Assembly: GCA_902780305.1 (NCBI GenBank)
Contig: CACZFB010000050.1
Location: forward strand, 1 to 39,011
Direction of reading: 5' to 3'
Length of the DNA: 39,011 nt
DNA from: an uncultured Coriobacteriaceae bacterium
GTDB taxonomy: Bacteria > Actinomycetota > Coriobacteriia > Coriobacteriales > Atopobiaceae
The stretch's first letter is position 1. Each line of letters starts with the position of its first letter. Both the position numbers and the translations under genes were made by a program. Positions 6,075 through 25,354 of the stretch are shown here, piece after piece. Under the pieces are notes generated by a model that did no database searches, was not told the DNA's origin, and worked only from the letters and a program-made list of their open reading frames with translations.

Positions 6075-6149
6075 GCCTTTGCCTTTCGCGCGCGTCCCTC
6101 ACATCACGCACAGTATACGACAAGGCCCGTACGTCGATGCTATACCTGG

Positions 6150-6172
6150 ACAAAGGGGACAGTCCCCTTTGT
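6150..6172. repeat. REP-like palindrome ACAAAGGGGAC/GTCCCCTTTGT
   Basis: A perfect palindrome with 11-bp arms and a one-base centre lies between the divergent thymidine kinase and TPR-protein genes. A T-run does not follow, so it is better explained as a dispersed repeat than as a terminator. A TATAGT-containing stretch at 6212-6224 just downstream could hold the promoter of the plus-strand cluster. Confidence 0.75.
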
Positions 6173-6265
6173 TCAGCGGAAGGAATGCACGACCTCGCGC
6201 GTCACTTCGCCTATAGTTATAGTATTGCAACAGACGAACGGCAACCGAACGGGCGGAGGGTAGCA

Positions 6266-6793
6266 ATGCACTTGGAGCACGGGTCTCATAATCACGACAA
6301 GCCAATGAGTCCCCAAGATGCCGTGCGCTCGCTGCTCGTGCTGGCACAGGTCGCACAAAATGCCGCCGACTACGAGTCGGCGGCCGAGGCATACGCAAGC
6401 GCGCTCGAAATCGAGCCGAACGTAGTCGCCCTGTACAACCTGGGTAGCTTTTACGCGCGGGGCCTCGGGGTGCGACAGGACTTCGTGGAGGCGGCACGGC
6501 TGTTTCATCAGGCGGACCTTCGGGGAAACGACAAGGCTGGAAAGCTGTGCGGCAAGTGTATGTTCGACTACGCTCACAACGACATGTTCGGCAAGACGCC
6601 TGCTCAGCTCTACGCCTCAATGGCCGTGTTTGTCTCGCGCGTCTTCCCCGAGGCGGCAAACCCTAGGCTCGAGGCGCGCAATGGCCTGCTCGCCATCGCC
6701 AACACCTTTCGTGCTAAGGGTGACGACGACAACGCGGAGCGGTTTCGCCTTGCCGCCGAATATGGCAACGCCATGCATGGCATAGACTCGTAG
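6266..6793 (+). CDS. TPR/Sel1-like repeat protein
   Basis: I place the start at ATG 6266, because GGAGGG lies 5 bases upstream; this gives 175 residues. The protein starts with a short His-rich tail (MHLEHGSHNHDKPM). It then has paired helices of TPR type: SLLVLAQVAQNAADYESAAE, and a Sel1-like unit ALYNLGSFYARGLGVRQDFVEAARLFHQA. A later helical stretch follows, with a NAERFRLAAEYGNA pair near the end. Such repeats make protein-protein contacts and have no catalytic role. There is no signal peptide or membrane segment. It is the first gene of a same-strand run that continues with the esterase gene 21 bases downstream, so it is probably co-transcribed with it and may act as an adaptor for it. 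No specific partner can be read from the sequence. Confidence 0.82.
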   Translation: MHLEHGSHNHDKPMSPQDAVRSLLVLAQVAQNAADYESAAEAYASALEIEPNVVALYNLGSFYARGLGVRQDFVEAARLFHQADLRGNDKAGKLCGKCMFDYAHNDMFGKTPAQLYASMAVFVSRVFPEAANPRLEARNGLLAIANTFRAKGDDDNAERFRLAAEYGNAMHGIDS

Positions 6794-6814
6794 TGCAAGG
6801 AAGGGAGCAAACAC

Positions 6815-7705
6815 ATGAACCCCATACTGCAGTGGTTCAGCACCAAGGGCAAGGATTTGATGGCAGAGGTTATCTCCACGAAGACGGTCGAGCACCCCTT
6901 GCCAGATGACCTCGAACTCCTTGCCGACCTTGCCTACCAGGGCCCGGACGGCGCGTCACTCGCCGCCGACGTCTATCGTCCCAAGGAAACGTCAGCGGAA
7001 CCATTTCCCATTGCGGTATTCGTACACGGTGGTGGCTTCTTCGTGGGCAGCCGCAAGGCCAACCGTGAATTCGCCGAGCTTTTGGCCGAACGAGGATACG
7101 TGGTGTTCGTTCCCGAGTATCGCCTCATCGACCAGGCGGATGGCATCGGCGCGATTTCGGACATCTGTGCCGGTCTCTCGTATCTAGCCACTCACGCATC
7201 CGATTTCGGCGGAGACCTTACCCACATCCTGATGATAGGCGAAAGTGCCGGCGGGTATCTGGCGCTCTACGCAACCGCGCTCCTCAGATCTCCGCTGCTT
7301 CAGCAGGTGCTTGATATCGAGGTTCCTCGTGTGTCGATGCGCGGACTCGCAAGCTTTGGCGGCATGCTCTATACGACTGGGAACGACCCAATTGGCCTCG
7401 TATATCGCCGGGACATGTATGGCGAGCGCCTCCGCGCTGCAAGCTTTAAGGACCTGATGAATCCCGAAGATCCAAGAGTCGAGACGAGCTTGCCTCCCGT
7501 GCTACAGGTAACAAGCGGGGCAGACTTCCTCAAGTCCTATACGCTGCGCTACAACAAGGCGCTTGCGATGGCGGGTCACGACCATCGGCTCATCTACTAC
7601 AGGAAGGGCAAGGAACTTACGCATGCCTTCCCCTCACTCCGTCCCGAGCTCCCGCAGAGCAGGGAGGTACTCAGCGAGCTCGACTCTTGGTTCAGGAGAC
7701 TCTAG
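6815..7705 (+). CDS. Alpha/beta hydrolase (HSL/BD-FAE-like esterase)
   Basis: The 296-residue protein has the HGGG oxyanion motif at residues 71-74, the nucleophile elbow GESAG with Ser144, an acid near Asp237 (SGADFLKSY) and a histidine near 270 (THAFP). This is a complete triad of the hormone-sensitive-lipase-like esterase family, which hydrolyses short-chain carboxylic esters. There is no signal peptide, so it should be cytoplasmic. GGAAGGGAG precedes ATG 6815 by 7 bases. Its C-terminal half is clearly related to the N-terminal domain of the large fusion two genes downstream: both contain DLMNPE or ELMNPE, then LPP-(V/T)-F/L-VTS and YTL-YN/HK. The two esterases therefore probably arose by duplication and may act on related substrates. 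Confidence 0.9.
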   Translation: MNPILQWFSTKGKDLMAEVISTKTVEHPLPDDLELLADLAYQGPDGASLAADVYRPKETSAEPFPIAVFVHGGGFFVGSRKANREFAELLAERGYVVFVPEYRLIDQADGIGAISDICAGLSYLATHASDFGGDLTHILMIGESAGGYLALYATALLRSPLLQQVLDIEVPRVSMRGLASFGGMLYTTGNDPIGLVYRRDMYGERLRAASFKDLMNPEDPRVETSLPPVLQVTSGADFLKSYTLRYNKALAMAGHDHRLIYYRKGKELTHAFPSLRPELPQSREVLSELDSWFRRL

Positions 7706-7740
7706 CCATTGGCTTTGCTCCTCCTTCTCACGGGCTGGCA

Positions 7741-7772
7741 GCCCATCAACGGGCTTACCCCCGTTGATGGGC
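7741..7772. repeat. Hairpin of the ATCAA..TTGAT repeat family, possibly also a terminator
   Basis: GCCCATCAACGGG (7741-7753) and CCCGTTGATGGGC (7760-7772) are perfect 13-base arms with a 6-base loop, 35 bases after the esterase stop. It is preceded by CACGGGCTGGC (7729-7739), a box that also precedes other members of this family. No T-run follows, so termination would be Rho-assisted at best. Confidence 0.7.
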
Positions 7773-7969
7773 GTACATATTCTGGTCAATCCGTGCACCG
7801 ATAATGAAAACAAATAATGACGCATACTGGTTTCTGTTTATCGTGGCATCGCGTAAGTGCAATAATAGCTTTTGAGTCTTACCATCTCGCCTATTCCGAG
7901 TGACCATGCATGGTGGGCTGTTGGCGACCCCAGACAAAGAGCATGCCCCCCAGGAAAGGAGCCATCCAC

Positions 7970-8590
7970 ATGACACAGTTTGCCCCACAGATGAATCAAC
8001 CACCTACCCCGCAAGGCATACCCTTTCCCACGATGCAGCTGCCGTTCGCCGGGGGCAATGGCCAGACCCAACCGCAATTTCCCACGCCACAGTTCCCCAT
8101 GCCGCAGTTCCCCATGCCGCAATTACCCTCCTTCGCGTTCCCGCAGTTCCCAAACGCGCAGCAACAGTCCATGCCCTCCCTACCACTCCCGACACCATTC
8201 ATTCCCTTCCCACAGCCTTACGTGCTGCACGAGCAGGCGCTCAAGAATACCATTGAACTCCTACGCAACCTGCTCGCCCAGAGCGAGGCGGCACGAGGTG
8301 CAGCCAATTTCGGCGTGCCTACCAATACTGACCAGCAGAACACCCCCGGCCCCCTTCCAAACGCACCTATACCTGGTCCTGGACCCCTCCCAAACGCACC
8401 CATGCCCAGTCCTGGACTCCTCCCAAACGCACCCATGCCCGGTCCTGGATGTCAGCAGATACCAATGCCTCAGACGCTTGAGCAACAAAAGGCGAACGAG
8501 ACGGGGATGCTGCCCAGGAACGACTTCCTTGGGAACATACTTGGCAACGTCTTTGGCGCCTCAAACACCGACTACTTCTATGAGGACTAG
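7970..8590 (+). CDS. Proline-rich tandem-repeat protein, unknown function
   Basis: I choose ATG 7970 because AGGAAAGGAG ends 8 bases upstream; this gives 206 residues. Residues 1 to about 85 are low-complexity Pro/Gln/Phe/Met, including tandem PQFPMPQFPMPQLP. A short predicted helix follows (LHEQALKNTIELLRNLLAQSEAARGA). Then come three 11-residue repeats of the LPNAPMPGPG type, encoded by exact 33-bp units at 8354-8452. The C-terminal tail is NILGNVFGASNTDYFYED. There is no signal peptide, no cell-wall motif and no transmembrane segment, so it is probably a cytoplasmic, largely disordered scaffold. It ends 5 bases before the esterase-adenylase fusion and must be co-transcribed with it. I recognise no family. 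A role in organising the neighbouring enzymes is inference from context only. Confidence 0.8.
   Translation: MTQFAPQMNQPPTPQGIPFPTMQLPFAGGNGQTQPQFPTPQFPMPQFPMPQLPSFAFPQFPNAQQQSMPSLPLPTPFIPFPQPYVLHEQALKNTIELLRNLLAQSEAARGAANFGVPTNTDQQNTPGPLPNAPIPGPGPLPNAPMPSPGLLPNAPMPGPGCQQIPMPQTLEQQKANETGMLPRNDFLGNILGNVFGASNTDYFYED
8354..8452 (+). repeat. Three 33-bp in-frame tandem repeats
   Basis: Units begin at 8354, 8387 and 8420, each starting CT(T/C)CC(C/A)AACGCACC. They encode LPNAP(I/M)P(G/S)PG(P/L) within the proline-rich protein. The second and third units are more alike than either is to the first, which suggests recent expansion by slippage or unequal exchange. Confidence 0.85.
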
Positions 8591-8595
8591 CCGCC

Positions 8596-11442
8596 ATGCC
8601 ATACGAAGGTAACAGACTCGACGAAATCATCCGCCGCGAGGCGGTTCGCCTGGTGCTCGAGCGAGTCCAGGGAGCAAGCATCGAAAGGGCGATGGACGAA
8701 CTGGACGACACGCCCAGCCAAATACCGGGTGCCCTGTACGAGGTAGACGAATACCTGAATCGCCCCTACATGAACAAGGCCGAGGTGCCTCTAGCCATGG
8801 ACGTCTTCATACCCAAGGCGCACGGAAAGGAAGAGTTGCCCCTCATCGTAAACATCCATGGTGGCGGTCTGGTAATTGGCGACCGCAAGATGTCGCGTGC
8901 CTACTGCCGTGTGCTTGCCTCCCGTGGTTACATCGTCTTCAGCATTGAGTACCGTCTGGCCCCCCGCGCCAATGTGAGCGAGCAGCTCGACGACGTATGT
9001 GCCGGCATGGACGCCATCGCCACCCATCTGATCCAATTCGAGGTGGATTACGACCGACTGTTCCTCACGGCAGAAAGTGCCGGCGCCTACCTTGCCATCT
9101 ACACGGCTGCCATGAAGTACTCCAAGCGCCTCCAGAAGGCCATCGGCTACGAGCCGACACGCATGGAATTCCGCGCGCTTGGCTTCGCTTCTGGCATGTT
9201 CTACACCAACCTCAATGACCCCATGGGATTCCTTCTTTCCGATCAGCTCTATGGCAGCAAGCGGGCTAGCCCGGAATTCCGCGAGCTCATGAACCCTGAG
9301 CACCACGAGATTGTTCGGAACCTGCCGCCCACGTTCATGGTCACGAGCCGCGGCGACTTCCTTAACAACTACACGCTCATGTACCACAAGTCCTTGAAGG
9401 ACGCAGGCAAGGCCACGAAGCTGGTCTACTACGGTGAGGCCGATCTTGGCCATGCGTTTATGTGCATCGATCCGACCCATCCCAAAAGCCTCGATGCCAT
9501 CGACCGTATGCTTGCGTGGTTCGAGGAGCAGGCCACCGCACGAATCAACCGCATCACGGTGTCGGATGAGCAGGCAAAACGACTCGCCCGCATTGAAGAA
9601 CGCATGGAAAGCCACCAGATCATCGAGCAGAAGAGCTGGCAGTTTATCCACGAACTGAACGCCGTTACGGACGATCGGCTCGACTCGGTGGCCTTGCGCG
9701 ACAACCGAAGAACCTACACGTACCGGCAGATGTTTCGCAAGTGGGAGCGCTATGCCGAGGTCTTCTCGGCGCTCGGCATCGGGGAGGCGGCGCACTCGCG
9801 CGTAGGAGTTCTGGGCACCACGGCCTTAGAGCCCTCCTTCGCCTTCTACGCCCTCAACATGGTAGGGGCGTCGGTAAGCATGCTGTCGATGTTCGAACTC
9901 CTCGACATCGACGGCTGCCTGGAGTCCATCAAGCAGGAGGGCATAACCGACCTCATCGTATCGGACCTCCTCGCTCAGCCAGATTTCGTGTCACGCGTCC
10001 TGGCCACACGCGAGCGCATTGGCCTGCGCAACGTCATCGTCATAAAGAGCCCCTATGGTGGCCGTTTGGGCAACGACGCAGTCGAGGCCATGAGCGTGCA
10101 AAACTATCTCATGCTCAAGCGTACGCCAGGGATACTCTGCATGGACGACCTCATGCGAAAGTATTCGGCAACGCCAATCGCCTATGCCGCGGCGCAGAAC
10201 GACGATGCTGCCGTCATCGTGCATACCTCCGGAACAACCAATGGCGTCCATAAGCCCATTCCACTCTCCGACATCGGTCTCAACGAGGCCGCGTATCGCG
10301 TTATGCGGTCCGACCTCGGCGCCGGGGTAAAAGCGGCAGACATCTGTCTTCTCCATATAGAACTCGCCGGCGCCTACGCCATGGTCGACATGCTTCATCT
10401 ACCGCTTGCGCTTGGCGCGCAGGTGGCGACTTTGCCCTTCTCGCTGATGAACCCAAACATGTCCAAGGCATTCGCGCACTATGGAATAAGCTACGCACTT
10501 ATGTCACCCATGATGCTGGACATGTTCTCCAAAGAACCGGTAAGACCCGATCTCTCGAGCATAAAAATGCCCATCCTCGGCGGCCAGTACCTGTCGGCCA
10601 ACGAACGGCGGCGCCTCAACGAGTTCCTGCATGAGTGCGGCAGCGAGGCCCGCGTCATCAACGGCTACGGTCTCTCAGAGGTGGGAGGCGCAATCATCAT
10701 CTCGCCAGCGGACCGCGAGGACGACACCATTGGCTATCCCCTGCCCGGTGTCGAGGTGCGTCTGCTCGACGAGGACGACGGAACCTACCACGAGCTCGGC
10801 GAGGGACCACGGCGCGGCGTGCTGTGCGTAAGCTCTCCCTCGGTTAGCTCCGGCTGTGTGGGTGATGTCGAGTTCTTTTCGGTTGAGGAGATTGACGGCA
10901 AGCGCTGGCTCAACACCTTTGACCTCGTGGACCTCAACGAGGACGGCAGTTTTACCTACGTAGGTCGCATGAACAAGTTCTTTGTGAACAACGACGGCGT
11001 ACGCTTCGATGCCGGCCTTGTGGAGACAGCCATCTCGAAGCATCCTGGCATCGTGGCGGCGGGACTCGCCGCCGAGTACGAAAAGTTCATTCACGACACC
11101 ATTCCCGTCTTGTACGTGACCTGTACCACCCAAGGGCCTGCGGCCCTGCAGACGTTGCGCCAGGCTTTGGTCGACGTGTTCGTGCGTGACGGCAACATCT
11201 CTCAAACGAACCTGCCCGGCCAATGCGCTATCTGTGCCGACATCCCGCGTACACCTACCGGCAAGGTGGATGTGCACCAGATTATGACCGGATCCGTAAG
11301 AGGTGACCGGTACCGAGTGCAGCCCGTATATGTTGGCGACAAGCTCACCGACATTCGCCTCGTTCCAGCATATGACGGCCCTGGCACCTGGGCGGGGCTT
11401 CCCGTGGAGCTCGATCCAACCCAGCGTTTTAGGGCACGTTAA
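8596..11442 (+). CDS. Esterase / acyl-adenylate-forming enzyme fusion
   Basis: The 948-residue protein joins two enzymes. Residues 1 to about 315 form an alpha/beta hydrolase with HGGG at 88-91, the elbow AESAG with Ser161, Asp254 (SRGDFLNNY) and His286 (LGHAF). Residues about 325-900 form an ANL-superfamily adenylation domain. Its motifs are the P-loop HTSGTTNG (543-550), NGYGLSE (689-695), the ribose-binding Asp776 in FDLVDLNEDG, GRMNKF around 790-795 and the catalytic Lys890 in PRTPTGKVDV. All key residues of both halves are present. No acyl-carrier domain is attached. A plausible reading is that the first domain frees a carboxylate from an ester and the second activates it with ATP, as an acyl-AMP or acyl-CoA. 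The acceptor and substrate are unknown. The first domain is related to the stand-alone esterase upstream. A GAGG about 10 bases before the ATG is a weak ribosome site, so coupling to the proline-rich gene 5 bases upstream is likely. Confidence 0.9.
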   Translation: MPYEGNRLDEIIRREAVRLVLERVQGASIERAMDELDDTPSQIPGALYEVDEYLNRPYMNKAEVPLAMDVFIPKAHGKEELPLIVNIHGGGLVIGDRKMSRAYCRVLASRGYIVFSIEYRLAPRANVSEQLDDVCAGMDAIATHLIQFEVDYDRLFLTAESAGAYLAIYTAAMKYSKRLQKAIGYEPTRMEFRALGFASGMFYTNLNDPMGFLLSDQLYGSKRASPEFRELMNPEHHEIVRNLPPTFMVTSRGDFLNNYTLMYHKSLKDAGKATKLVYYGEADLGHAFMCIDPTHPKSLDAIDRMLAWFEEQATARINRITVSDEQAKRLARIEERMESHQIIEQKSWQFIHELNAVTDDRLDSVALRDNRRTYTYRQMFRKWERYAEVFSALGIGEAAHSRVGVLGTTALEPSFAFYALNMVGASVSMLSMFELLDIDGCLESIKQEGITDLIVSDLLAQPDFVSRVLATRERIGLRNVIVIKSPYGGRLGNDAVEAMSVQNYLMLKRTPGILCMDDLMRKYSATPIAYAAAQNDDAAVIVHTSGTTNGVHKPIPLSDIGLNEAAYRVMRSDLGAGVKAADICLLHIELAGAYAMVDMLHLPLALGAQVATLPFSLMNPNMSKAFAHYGISYALMSPMMLDMFSKEPVRPDLSSIKMPILGGQYLSANERRRLNEFLHECGSEARVINGYGLSEVGGAIIISPADREDDTIGYPLPGVEVRLLDEDDGTYHELGEGPRRGVLCVSSPSVSSGCVGDVEFFSVEEIDGKRWLNTFDLVDLNEDGSFTYVGRMNKFFVNNDGVRFDAGLVETAISKHPGIVAAGLAAEYEKFIHDTIPVLYVTCTTQGPAALQTLRQALVDVFVRDGNISQTNLPGQCAICADIPRTPTGKVDVHQIMTGSVRGDRYRVQPVYVGDKLTDIRLVPAYDGPGTWAGLPVELDPTQRFRAR

Positions 11443-21079: not shown

Positions 21080-24000
21080 TTAGGAGGCGTCCCCCATGCA
21101 AGCGCCCGCCTGACGGCATTCGTCGATATTCACAATGAGCTCGTAGTACACGCGTCCCAAGCCCTCCACGTCAACAAGGCGTCCGCTACCAAGCACGTTG
21201 CGCACTTCCTTGTTTTTGGTAACAACGCGATAGGTCACAAAGGACTTGCCTTCGTTGTCCTCTGTTCCTATTTGCGCATCGAGCTCCTCGTGCACGCGCT
21301 GTATGTCATCGGGATGCATAACACTGACGAACGTGCCTCCCGAAAGCCTCATGTAATCAGCGAAATCATCGCACTCAAAAAGACGCAGAGCCTCTTCGTT
21401 GACAAACAGGGTCTCCCAATTGTGGGAATAGCGGCTCACAACAATCGCTCCCGGAACGCTCGCCGCTATGTCGCGCGGCGTAAAGCCCAGCTGCATGCGA
21501 TACTGGCCCTCGACGTCGGGCGAGTATGCCCTGCACCCCGATTTCTCCTTGAGCTTTACGGCATAGAGCGCCTGGTCGGCCTTTCTGTAGACACCCATAA
21601 GATCGTTTGCCTGGTCGGGATAAGAAGCATAGCCAGCCGACATGGACAGGTGGTAGCACTTGCCGTTGAGCGTACACGAAAGGTTGCGGGCTAGAAGGTC
21701 CCCGATCATCCTCCCGGCCTCATCCATTCCATAGCCATACAGCATGACAAGAAACTCATCGCCGCCGTTGCGTCCTACAATGGCATCGGACGGGAACGAT
21801 TCCAGGATTGCTTGCGCTAGCGAACGCAGCGCCTCGTCACCCACGTCGTGCCCATGGACGTCGTTGACGGTCTTAAAGTCGTCTATGTCCATCAACGCCA
21901 ACACGAAGCGCTCGCCAGGCCGGTCCTCCATCTGCTTGCTAATGGCAAGGTCGATGCCGCGACGGTTCAATATGCCCGTAAGCGCGTCTCGCTGACTATT
22001 CCGCCTAAGCTCCCCCACAAGGCGATGGTTAACCATGCGAGCAGCCACAAACGATGCAACCGACCCCATAAGCCGTACTACATCCAAATCGTCGTCGAGC
22101 TCATAGTTGTCAATTACAAGGTAGCCCAACGATACGTTATCGCTCTTTACGGGCACCACCATCATGCACGTAATACCGCGCGCAGCAAGCATGTCGAGCA
22201 CGCCCCTGTCGATGCCCTCCGAATTGTAGACGTCGGGCACTATGAGGGGGCCACTTGCGGTCAATCGATCCCAGGCATCGAACTCTACGTCCTTAAGTCC
22301 TTGCATAACGCCTATGAGCGGCTCGACGTCCTCGTCGCACCACTCGAAGGCCACGCCCAAGGCATTTGGCTCCCTCTCTATAAGAGAAACCCGCTTGGCA
22401 TGGGCAATGCGACTCAACGCCGCAAGCAGCTGGCTCATGGCAACGTCGTAGCTTGCCTCTCCGCTAAAGGTGTCAGCGATATCTATGATGAGGTCTGCCG
22501 TGTCGAGGCTCACGGACAGCTTCTCGCGCTCGCGCTGCTCATTGTCGGCTATGGTGAATGCGAACACGTAATAATCCTCGATGGAGCACGGAGCGATGCT
22601 AATACTCAGCCAGTGGTCGATTTCGGGACTGTACACGACGTCGTAGACGGTCTCACCCGACATAATGGCGCGACGGCAGTAAGGGAACCACCGCTCTCTG
22701 GCATTATCGACATTCTCAATACGCTCGAAGACGGAGTGTCCCACCAGTTCCCTTTCCTTGGCACCAACCACATCAAGATACATTTGGTTGGCATAGGCAT
22801 ACACCACGTCAACAATCCGCTCGTGGGCATTGTCAAACAACGCACGGCACACGGAGTACCCCACGGGCACGTCGCCGAACCCACCCAAGGCATTCCCAAG
22901 CAGCGTGGGCACGGACGAGACCGCAAACGCTTTGGCGTACGCAGAGGACGCTATATGCCGTACGTAGAACTGGTACCCCGTTCCCCTCTCCAAGCTTCCC
23001 GCAATCCGCTCCCATGCCCCGCTGGCAACGGAGCGCTCGGCTGCCTCTGGAAACTCGGGATCAAGCAGGTCTGCGTTGAACGTTGTAGCCAGCATGCGCT
23101 TTCCGTCATCGAACGCAATGCCCATCCCACGCAAAAAGACACGATAGGAATCGTTGGCACGAAGCACACGCCACTCGTTATCCCGCAGTTCCACCACACC
23201 CATGGGACGCTCCGCCAAAGACGCGGAGCCAACTATGTCCGCGCTCGTTACCTCGCAGAGGTCAACGAGATTGGCGCGCCCGACGGAGTCCCAGTATGCG
23301 GACTCCTCGTAGTGCTCGCGCGGGTTTTTGGCCGTTGACTTGAGGATGTCTTCAAGGGATGTCGGACGGCAGAGCAGATAGCCCTGAAGCATGTTGCAGC
23401 CTGCGTTTTGTAGGAATTGCGCTTGGCTGTTGGTCTCCACCCCCTCGGCCAGAGTGTCGAGACCCATCCTGCTCATTCCATGCAAGACGCTGGACACAAC
23501 GGCCTGCGCACGCTTCCCATAATCTCCCTCAAGGCCGTGCACGAACTCCATGTCGAGCTTTACGAGATCGAAATCGAATTCCTGCAACGTGTTAAGGGAG
23601 GAGTAGCCGCTGCCAAAGTCGTCCATCCATACATCAAAGCCAGCTTTGTGCAAAGAGCGCACCTGCTCCTTAAAGAGCTCGGGGTTGGAGGACGCAGCTG
23701 ACTCGGTTAGCTCCACGACCAACAGCTTGTGGTCGATGCCCCGTTCGTCTGCCCGTCGTGATACCTCGGCAGCTATGTCAATCTGAACGAGGTCGTTTAC
23801 CGAGAAGTTTACCGACACGGGCACGACCGGAATGCCCATATCCTGCTTGGTGCATATGTCGTCAAGCACGCAGTCGACCATATGCAGGTCGAGCTTATAC
23901 AAGATTTCCGCCTTCTCGAGAACGGGTATGAACTCCCCGGGAGAGAGGAACCCGTACTGAGGGTCTATCCAGCGTGCCAGCGCCTCCTCGCCACAGATGT

Positions 24001-24973
24001 CGTTGGTGGCCGATCGCGCTATGGCCTGATAATAGGGACGAACCCAACCTTTGGCTATTGCCGTGTCAAGGCTTTCCAAAACGTGGACGCGAATCCGCTC
24101 CCCCTGGCTCATCTCGTTGGTAAACCAAGCGACGTGCGTTCTCCAGACTCCGCGCTCTCTGTCGCAGGCAGTCTTTGCCCTGTCGAAGCCCACGGCAGAG
24201 ATGTCGTCATCGGACTCGCACGCATACAGGCCAACGCGAACGGGCAGCTTCGCATCCAAGCTCTCACGCTCGTAGTTCGCAAGCAGGCCCAACACCACAT
24301 CCTCCACTGTCTCTGCCTCGCCAAAGGCATAGAAGTGGTCCCCGTCAAAATGTGCGCACGCATTCCTGCCAAAGGCATCGCTCAAAAGCTGCGCAAACAG
24401 GCGTAACAGCTCGTCACCCCTCATCCGACCATAGCGGTCGTTGTAGTTTTTAAAACCAGTAAGGTTGAAGGCCACGGCCACGGGTCGCATGCCCTGTTGC
24501 GCGTAGGCGTGGGACTGCGCTTCCGCAAGTTGATAGAAGTGATCCATGGTGGGAAGGCCGGTAAGCCAATCGACGGTCCTGTTGCGCATGAGCTCCACGA
24601 TAAACGCGTTGCAGATGGCACGGCCGCCTTCCTGCGACACGTGCTTGCCGTGCACGGCTACGTTGGCAATGCGCCCATGTGCAGTGCGTACGCGCAGGTA
24701 GGCGTAAGACGCCTCATCGGGAATGCGCGAAAGCTGGTGCATGAACTCCTCGACTATGGTCAGGTCTTCTTCGTAGACGATCGCACGAAAGCCGCCCGCG
24801 TAGCACTCCATGGCCTCCTGGACCGAGTCGCACTCCAGCAACGCGGCAGCATGACGATTCATGTAGACGATCTCCATCTCGCCATCGGCATAGAAGAGCA
24901 TGGCTCCACCGGGAGCCATCTCCAGATTGAGTGAGTAGTGCCCAACAACGGCATCAGAATAGCTGTTTCCCAT
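21080..24973 (-). CDS. Multidomain cyclic-di-GMP protein: PAS-GGDEF-EAL-PAS-GAF-GGDEF-PAS
   Basis: Start at ATG 24973 (GGAGGAACGG directly upstream) gives 1297 residues. Order: PAS-like sensor (about 10-125); degenerate GGDEF (about 132-285, DGDHF at 210-214 in place of GGDEF); EAL (about 300-550) with EALAR from Glu330, ELTES, DDFGSGYSSL, LVKLDMEF and LAEGVET, so phosphodiesterase residues look intact. Then come a PAS-like region (about 570-830), a GAF domain (about 835-1010), a canonical GGDEF (DALTGILNRRG, then GGDEF at 1070-1074) and a final PAS (about 1185-1290). It has no membrane segment. It should both make and break cyclic di-GMP under control of bound small molecules. The degenerate first GGDEF may bind GTP to regulate the EAL, as known for some hybrids. 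An EAL followed by a distant second GGDEF separated by PAS and GAF is an unusual order. It is monocistronic. Confidence 0.92.
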   Translation of the reverse strand: MGNSYSDAVVGHYSLNLEMAPGGAMLFYADGEMEIVYMNRHAAALLECDSVQEAMECYAGGFRAIVYEEDLTIVEEFMHQLSRIPDEASYAYLRVRTAHGRIANVAVHGKHVSQEGGRAICNAFIVELMRNRTVDWLTGLPTMDHFYQLAEAQSHAYAQQGMRPVAVAFNLTGFKNYNDRYGRMRGDELLRLFAQLLSDAFGRNACAHFDGDHFYAFGEAETVEDVVLGLLANYERESLDAKLPVRVGLYACESDDDISAVGFDRAKTACDRERGVWRTHVAWFTNEMSQGERIRVHVLESLDTAIAKGWVRPYYQAIARSATNDICGEEALARWIDPQYGFLSPGEFIPVLEKAEILYKLDLHMVDCVLDDICTKQDMGIPVVPVSVNFSVNDLVQIDIAAEVSRRADERGIDHKLLVVELTESAASSNPELFKEQVRSLHKAGFDVWMDDFGSGYSSLNTLQEFDFDLVKLDMEFVHGLEGDYGKRAQAVVSSVLHGMSRMGLDTLAEGVETNSQAQFLQNAGCNMLQGYLLCRPTSLEDILKSTAKNPREHYEESAYWDSVGRANLVDLCEVTSADIVGSASLAERPMGVVELRDNEWRVLRANDSYRVFLRGMGIAFDDGKRMLATTFNADLLDPEFPEAAERSVASGAWERIAGSLERGTGYQFYVRHIASSAYAKAFAVSSVPTLLGNALGGFGDVPVGYSVCRALFDNAHERIVDVVYAYANQMYLDVVGAKERELVGHSVFERIENVDNARERWFPYCRRAIMSGETVYDVVYSPEIDHWLSISIAPCSIEDYYVFAFTIADNEQREREKLSVSLDTADLIIDIADTFSGEASYDVAMSQLLAALSRIAHAKRVSLIEREPNALGVAFEWCDEDVEPLIGVMQGLKDVEFDAWDRLTASGPLIVPDVYNSEGIDRGVLDMLAARGITCMMVVPVKSDNVSLGYLVIDNYELDDDLDVVRLMGSVASFVAARMVNHRLVGELRRNSQRDALTGILNRRGIDLAISKQMEDRPGERFVLALMDIDDFKTVNDVHGHDVGDEALRSLAQAILESFPSDAIVGRNGGDEFLVMLYGYGMDEAGRMIGDLLARNLSCTLNGKCYHLSMSAGYASYPDQANDLMGVYRKADQALYAVKLKEKSGCRAYSPDVEGQYRMQLGFTPRDIAASVPGAIVVSRYSHNWETLFVNEEALRLFECDDFADYMRLSGGTFVSVMHPDDIQRVHEELDAQIGTEDNEGKSFVTYRVVTKNKEVRNVLGSGRLVDVEGLGRVYYELIVNIDECRQAGACMGDAS

Positions 24974-25354
24974 CCGTTCCTCCGTCAGGTGCTCGATGCG
25001 CCCTACACCACCCAATGATATCGAAGGATGGGTAACTCTTGGATGATTCATCTGGTAAACGGCTCATTAGTGATAGCGGCACTCAAATGGCGCAGTTGGG
25101 CACATAACCGGTATCGCGCATCCTCGATAGGGTGACGCCCTTCTACTCAAGGAGCGTGGTGTTCATAGACTCGTTCACGCGGATTCGGCTCGGCGAACCG
25201 CAGGTATTCCGTACGGTCATACCCAAAGATTCCCGACCGTTTCTCCGACGCATTCCTTGAGTTCGAATGGCAATAAAAGTGATACTATTTTTGTACTTTT
25301 TCGATTGCACTTGCGCCCAAGAGCAACCTCAACGGCGCGTCAAAGGAGGACTGA
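24974..25354. other. Intergenic region upstream of two divergent genes
   Basis: This 381-base stretch holds the promoter regions of the divergent cyclic-di-GMP gene and queT. I see no gene. A candidate queT promoter is listed separately. Between it and the queT start, TGCGCC (25306-25311) and GGCGCG (25335-25340) can pair as a short stem above the ribosome site. Confidence 0.5.
25257..25286 (+). promoter_or_regulatory. Candidate promoter of queT
   Basis: TTGAGT (25257-25262) and GATACT (25281-25286) stand 18 bases apart in an AT-rich patch, leaving an untranslated leader of about 60 bases before the gene. The leader contains a short GCGCC/GGCGC stem. I looked for the preQ1-I and preQ1-II patterns that often control queT and did not find either. 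Confidence 0.45.

Follow-up and report, generated by a model that had tools for sequence, protein, structure and literature searches.

In this work we have examined a set of genes in a stretch of 39,011 nucleotides from an uncultured Coriobacteriaceae bacterium (contig CACZFB010000050.1, here contig C50 of genome G000), the whole of which we call the window. Four open reading frames (ORFs) follow each other on one strand and encode a TPR/Sel1 protein (P0001), a stand-alone esterase (P0002), a proline- and glutamine-rich protein (P0003) and an esterase fused to an adenylating enzyme (P0004). An earlier interpretation made from the letters alone, below the sequence-only reading, had taken all four for one system, and its description of the four ORFs and their gaps holds. 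The gaps are 21, 264 and 5 bases when P0003 is started at the ATG behind AGGAAAGGAG, as we have chosen (the longest frame would begin at 7910), and the hairpin noticed in the 264-base gap has perfect arms of 13 bp (7741-7753 and 7760-7772) and no T-run. Its folding energy is -31.7 kcal/mol with a z-score of -4.1, calculated for a stretch picked around the hairpin. As a second hairpin directly follows the fusion gene, the two bracket the P0003-P0004 pair. A scan of the window with Rfam at the gathering threshold gave 0 matches. The features are collected in Table 1.

Table 1. Features of the locus, with positions in the window and the evidence for each
Feature	Position	Strand	Basis
P0001, TPR/Sel1 protein, outside the system	6266..6793	+	unlinked in relatives
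P0002, stand-alone esterase of the hormone-sensitive lipase (HSL) type, likely accessory member	6815..7705	+	Pfam; same-genus loci
Perfect hairpin between P0002 and P0003	7741..7772		repeat and folding analysis
P0003, proline/glutamine-rich, 206 aa, stand-alone carrier of the predicted docking tail	7970..8590	+	alignment of 7
Conserved N-terminal island of P0003 (MTQFAPQM...PQGIPFPTM)	7970..8035	+	alignment of 7
Conserved central island of P0003 (PQPYVLHEQALKNTIELLRNLLAQSEAARGA), judged helical only by eye	8210..8302	+	alignment of 7
C-terminal peptide of P0003 (GMLPRNDFLGNILGNVFGASNTDYFYED), docking predicted on relatives	8504..8587	+	alignment and pattern searches
P0004, esterase-adenylase fusion, 948 aa	8596..11442	+	Pfam; 13 related loci; 8/140 family genomes
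P0004 esterase centre: HGGG, A-E-Ser161-A-G, Asp254, His286	8857..9459	+	alignment of 108
P0004 adenylase A4 segment with acidic Glu589	10354..10377	+	alignment of 108 homologues
P0004 A10 segment with catalytic Lys890	11251..11271	+	108/108
Beta-hairpin after A10 (P0004 residues 904-926), candidate dock site	11305..11373	+	inferred; strands at the matching place in both models
Hairpin directly after P0004	11461..11501		folding z -5.0

The genes P0003 and P0004 are tightly linked and belong together. Our genome searches were performed at E <= 1e-60 (one at 1e-40), a threshold at which distant relatives go uncounted, and P0004 had matches in 10 of 140 genomes of the same family. Eight of these carry a fusion of the window's type, which in G299 runs off the contig end; of the other two, G338 has an unfused adenylase, while an operon of a second type is present in G360. 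A DNA pattern for the P0003 ending YFYED followed by a stop codon was matched in nine of the 140 genomes, namely the eight with the fusion and G361, where the match ends in TGG and not in a stop, and the ending is absent from the other 132. In 8/8 of the fusion genomes exactly 5 bases separate the stop of the YFYED ORF from the ATG of the fusion gene, and a looser pattern for the tail occurs a single time in the window genome, within P0003. The set is rare, occurring here and there among bacteria of the gut and rumen. Across a sample of the phylum it was matched in 1 of 296 genomes, the window's own, and in two clostridial families in 2 of 197 and 2 of 397, the centre genome being counted each time and one match covering the esterase only. 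Sheep gut or goat rumen is named in the titles of 4 of 13 related records, and the RUG isolates among the relatives are rumen genomes. Searches of the open-licence PMC literature aimed at this gene set or its chemistry gave no paper on it.

Do the other two genes belong to the set? P0002 is likely an accessory member, as five of seven same-genus loci, the window included, have a stand-alone esterase no more than about 5 kb from the set. The TPR/Sel1 gene we have ruled out. Homologues of P0001 are present in 12 of 16 genomes of the genus, six of which (G354, G355, G356, G361, G362 and G367) lack a match to the fusion; in the four other same-genus genomes with both (G357, G359, G364 and G366) they lie on separate contigs, and a further copy of P0001 is present on contig C1 of the window genome. 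Thus the proposal that the four genes are conserved together stands for P0003 with P0004, mostly accompanied by a stand-alone esterase, and fails for P0001. Upstream of P0001 there is a strong 15-bp palindrome (CTGGACAAAGGGGAC, 6146-6176, folding z -4.5), and elsewhere in the window the minus strand encodes an EAL/GGDEF/PAS protein of 1323 residues (21080-25051).

P0003 matches no Pfam family. Seven sequences of its type, five stand-alone and two cut from adenylase tails, share three islands, at the N-terminus, in the centre and at the C-terminus, separated by variable linkers. Among 5.8 billion proteins only three stand-alone relatives were found, one being the window's own; the search, which was restricted to proteins of similar length with words in common, missed the longer forms at loci L011 and L015. 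The C-terminal island also sits on other carriers. In each of the 12 longer relative loci a single ORF on the plus strand ends in the tail motif, and its product is a stand-alone proline-rich protein in L011 and L015, an adenylase in L009, L010, L018, L020 and L021, and a small protein with acidic stretches in L012, L013, L016, L017 and L019. Linkers before the tail measure from about 70 to over 300 residues. Likewise, 52 of 66 fusion homologues of at least 990 aa end in two acidic residues, versus 2 of 53 between 900 and 990 aa, P0004 included (P0020 was left out of this count). Judged from the sequences, the conserved tail moves between carriers, sitting now on a stand-alone protein, now on an adenylase encoded nearby and now on the fusion.

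What could such a tail do? We examined AlphaFold2 models of two relatives which carry it on the same chain, P0031 (alignment A1) and P0118 (alignment A2). A1 holds 108 sequences, P0004 and 107 of 120 listed homologues, 13 long, truncated or near-duplicate ones being omitted; A2 holds 64; and the underlying searches supplied the best 120 of 293 and the best 120 of 284 homologues. In the P0031 model, residues 948-1028 have a predicted local distance difference test (pLDDT) score below 50, and the tail then rises to 74, 90 and 96 in the blocks 1031-1040, 1041-1050 and 1051-1054, with a helix at 1029-1042 and a strand at 1052-1053. The P0118 model is similar: residues 937-992 are below 50, residues 1011-1019 average 90, and there is a strand at 1017-1018. 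In both, the strand residues are the [FY]-E pair at positions -3 and -2. Because a strand assigned by DSSP requires a partner elsewhere in the chain, the models set the tail against another part of the protein, and the high pLDDT with a short strand after a stretch of low pLDDT means that the peptide is predicted to dock on the enzyme. The hairpin after A10 is a candidate for the dock site by inference only. The sequence-only reading had called P0003 a proline-rich scaffold; what survives of this is a flexible tether with a conserved C-terminal peptide which, from the models of relatives, is predicted to dock.

As for the enzymes, Pfam finds Abhydrolase_3/BD-FAE in P0002 and P0004 and AMP-binding in P0004 (E 1.7e-38). 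The complete triads and adenylation motifs claimed earlier were confirmed: among 108 aligned fusion homologues, Ser161 is conserved in 107 and Asp254, His286, Glu695 and Lys890 in all 108. The HGGG oxyanion hole and Ser-Asp-His triad are those of bacterial HSL esterases (Abhydrolase_3), and the A5 Glu, A7 Asp, A8 Arg and A10 Lys of the ANL superfamily are each present in 108/108, so that the residues of both active centres are intact. The A4 position is acidic in 102 of the 108 (Asp in 68, Glu in 34). In the adenylation domains of nonribosomal peptide synthetases (NRPS) the acidic A4 residue binds the amine of the substrate, and the substrate here may therefore also bear one. One paralogue has the equivalent segment FDFSS, which is matched in alignment by the FDAS of an NRPS; among solved proteins this paralogue is most closely related to DltA, the NRPS in question and a beta-aminoacyl-ACP (acyl carrier protein) synthetase. 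From these residues we lean to an amine-bearing acid as the substrate of P0004.

The relatives show in what company such enzymes occur. In a tree of 54 adenylase domains P0004 groups with other coriobacterial fusions (7 rows, support 100/100). Loci of the first type have one to five adenylases with esterases. The claim that no transporter accompanies the genes is correct beside those of the window, but the clostridial relatives do carry them: MFS_2 symporters lie in or beside the clusters (by Pfam in L012, L018 and L020, in others by BLAST), MatE-HATPase_c_2 transporters likewise lie in or beside them (by Pfam in L012, as full-length BLAST relatives in L013, L016, L017, L018 and L019), and LPG_synthase_C proteins are present as well in L013 and L017. 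Between the adenylases we also noticed small acidic proteins with repeated GFACxxxPCF-like cysteine motifs (L019:12835-13188, L019:17348-17968 and L017:10030-10482), the first of which gave no family in Pfam. Near family adenylases there are SpoIIE-type phosphatases, found by Pfam at L078:6706-8280 and L086:6662-9271, one of these fused to HATPase_c_2, and by BLAST only at L094:6629-7645 and L103:6432-8501. Together with the MatE transporter fused to HATPase_c_2 they make a link to partner-switching regulation possible.

The second type of operon (L096-L098) encodes an adenylase with a methionine-rich tail, another adenylase, a small methionine-rich protein and an esterase-adenylase with a tail. 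Its adenylases fall into two other deep clades of the tree, where the program warns of long branches. At L099 the fusion (6475-8874) is shorter than its relatives, with 799 aa and a divergent end, DYTS, and may be degenerate or reflect an assembly error. G360, which belongs to the window's genus, has a related set that is partly masked. The small methionine-rich proteins (L096:6524-6961, L097:12501-13085, L098:12915-13355 and L099:5952-6515) share a C-terminal segment, MDMSPENLEKL[QR]K[VA]LD, in four clostridial operons, and two of them searched in Pfam gave no family. Separately, the window genome has a second family adenylase on contig C23 (L077:3935-6640), with a 265-residue proline/methionine-rich tail without the YED end and with relatives in G338, G357, G364 and G368.

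How might these parts work together? We tentatively favour, at somewhat less than even confidence, an esterase/adenylase complex which needs no carrier protein and is held together by a tail resembling a short linear motif (SLiM). The C-terminal peptide of P0003 would dock in trans on P0004, encoded 5 bases downstream, and P0003 would serve as a flexible tether gathering the esterase and adenylase active sites. The esterase would cleave an ester and feed the adenylase, and the released, probably amine-bearing acid would be adenylated without a carrier. Where an adenylase itself ends in the tail (G359, G365 and Butyrivibrio), the tail may bring it to the esterase, and in the two modelled fusions with their own tail it is predicted to fold back as a helix and a two-residue strand. 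The absence of a carrier protein beside the set, stated earlier, is borne out on the window contig: PF00550 matches occur in all six genomes searched, but none of the eight in G000 is on C50. Three of the matches in G000 lie in a 3064-residue open frame on contig C7, with similar frames in G357 and G365; it is apparently an NRPS-like gene unrelated to the set.

Several observations weigh against this reading. Modelling covered relatives with the tail in cis rather than the P0003-P0004 pair, and a high pLDDT could by itself make the tail contact look better than it is. A coupling analysis of the tail against the core, for which 104 of 111 tail-length homologues were retained (an effective number of 66), indicated no clear site, its top pairs being scattered across both domains and confounded by subfamilies. 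The first hairpin may separate P0002 and P0003 into two transcripts, the stand-alone esterase is not near the set at two of the seven same-genus loci, and in one of the six genomes, G439, carrier domains do lie near a cluster. The A4 segment of P0004 itself reads I-E-L-A and not FDxS. By sequence, the solved adenylating enzymes closest to P0004 are luciferases, NCBIfam ranks acyl-CoA synthetases first, and the nearest solved folds for the adenylase of the modelled relatives are aryl-CoA ligases (4-coumarate:CoA, benzoate:CoA and feruloyl-CoA ligases). For their esterase the fold match is esterase B. One list from VIA-align was wholly adenylase, and the absence of other families there carries no meaning.

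The affinities to luciferases, acyl-CoA synthetases and aryl-CoA ligases would suit a catabolic role, much as in the sequence-only reading, which we find doubtful although it survives best among the alternatives. An imported conjugate, for instance a plant phenolic ester, would be split by the esterase to give an aryl or acyl acid, the adenylase would make the CoA thioester of this acid, and the tail would be a minor stabiliser. The BD-FAE matches in the esterases, the sugar-type MFS_2 symporters of the clostridial clusters and the gut and rumen titles all agree with this. However, aryl ligases have His or an aromatic residue at A4, where 102 of our 108 homologues have Asp or Glu; the three divergent adenylases of a second-type operon are more than one CoA ligation requires; and the NCBIfam matches listed are far under their cut-offs (best 25 of 80). 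The model for amino-acid adenylation, TIGR01733, stays below its own cut-off too (91.3 bits against 317.4).

Could the set instead be biosynthetic? In its widest form the idea is that of a carrier-free assembly line in gut anaerobes of two phyla, with amino-acid-type adenylases and an esterase-fold domain making a small molecule through interchangeable docking tails on low-complexity tethers, and this we judge unlikely. Rather unlikely, too, is the version in which the adenylases activate amino acids, the esterase-fold domain joins the units as a transferase and the tails set the order. It draws on the FDxS-like A4 and DltA/NRPS kinship of the paralogue, on the make-up of the second-type operon, where three adenylases go with a single esterase domain and a single tail, and on the lack of a PP-binding domain on C50. 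Yet no product or tailoring genes were seen recurring around the set, the G439 cluster has carrier-domain genes nearby, and to our knowledge the members of the HSL family are hydrolases. It is improbable that the tail serves the fusion as an autoinhibitory plug or an aid to folding and has no part in assembly: both modelled fusions do have it folded back onto their own chain, but it is often on a separate protein, on a neighbouring adenylase or behind the long linkers described above. That the tails, rich in Met, Pro and Gln, attach the enzymes to a membrane or a hydrophobic granule in the manner of phasins seems very improbable, since despite the methionine-rich segments and the small methionine-rich protein of the second-type operons no phasin family was matched in 10 proteins (E up to 1; a polymer synthase was not searched for).

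The tethered complex which we prefer would make the set an unnamed esterase-adenylase family with a shared, predicted docking tail that moves between proteins, and a mobile tail of this kind provides a testable rule for which protein binds which. If the adenylases do use amino acids without carriers, they would represent a new route to amides or esters, and the tail might become a portable tag for enzyme engineering.

The closest parallel to the tail is the pairing of a SLiM with a beta-hairpin docking (bHD) domain in NRPS and of mixed polyketide synthase-NRPS (PKS-NRPS) systems. As described in PMC9113145, the final residues there form a short beta-strand with charged contacts; the motif sits at the C-terminus behind a disordered linker, as our tail does by the predicted disorder of relatives; both end in a short strand; and the motif, too, is able to sit on different enzymes. 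The set differs in that P0004 has neither a carrier nor a condensation domain, the tail is often a separate protein and is predicted to contain a helix, and the modelled relatives of P0004 start with helices and not a hairpin. The tail would act in much the same manner as in these pairs, but as Pfam (E up to 0.1) finds no bHD receptor or docking domain in P0004, we do not class the set with the SLiM-bHD systems. With NRPS adenylation domains and DltA the set shares the acidic A4, the A5 Glu, A7 Asp and A10 Lys and the sequence kinship of the paralogue. The residue before the A7 Asp is usually Gly (TGD), whereas in 107 of 108 set homologues it is Asn, Tyr or Phe; A8 reads VNN[ED]G in many of them; and the set is fused to an esterase, with no carrier partner on the window contig. 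The 4-coumarate, feruloyl and benzoate:CoA ligases are alike in fold, but at about 16% identity, and the set is distinguished from them by its acidic A4, its esterase fusion and its predicted docking tail. From HSL esterases such as esterase B of Lactobacillus rhamnosus (4n5h), finally, it differs in a nucleophile elbow that begins with Ala in 88 of 108 homologues and not with Gly, and in the fusion of its esterase domain to an adenylase.

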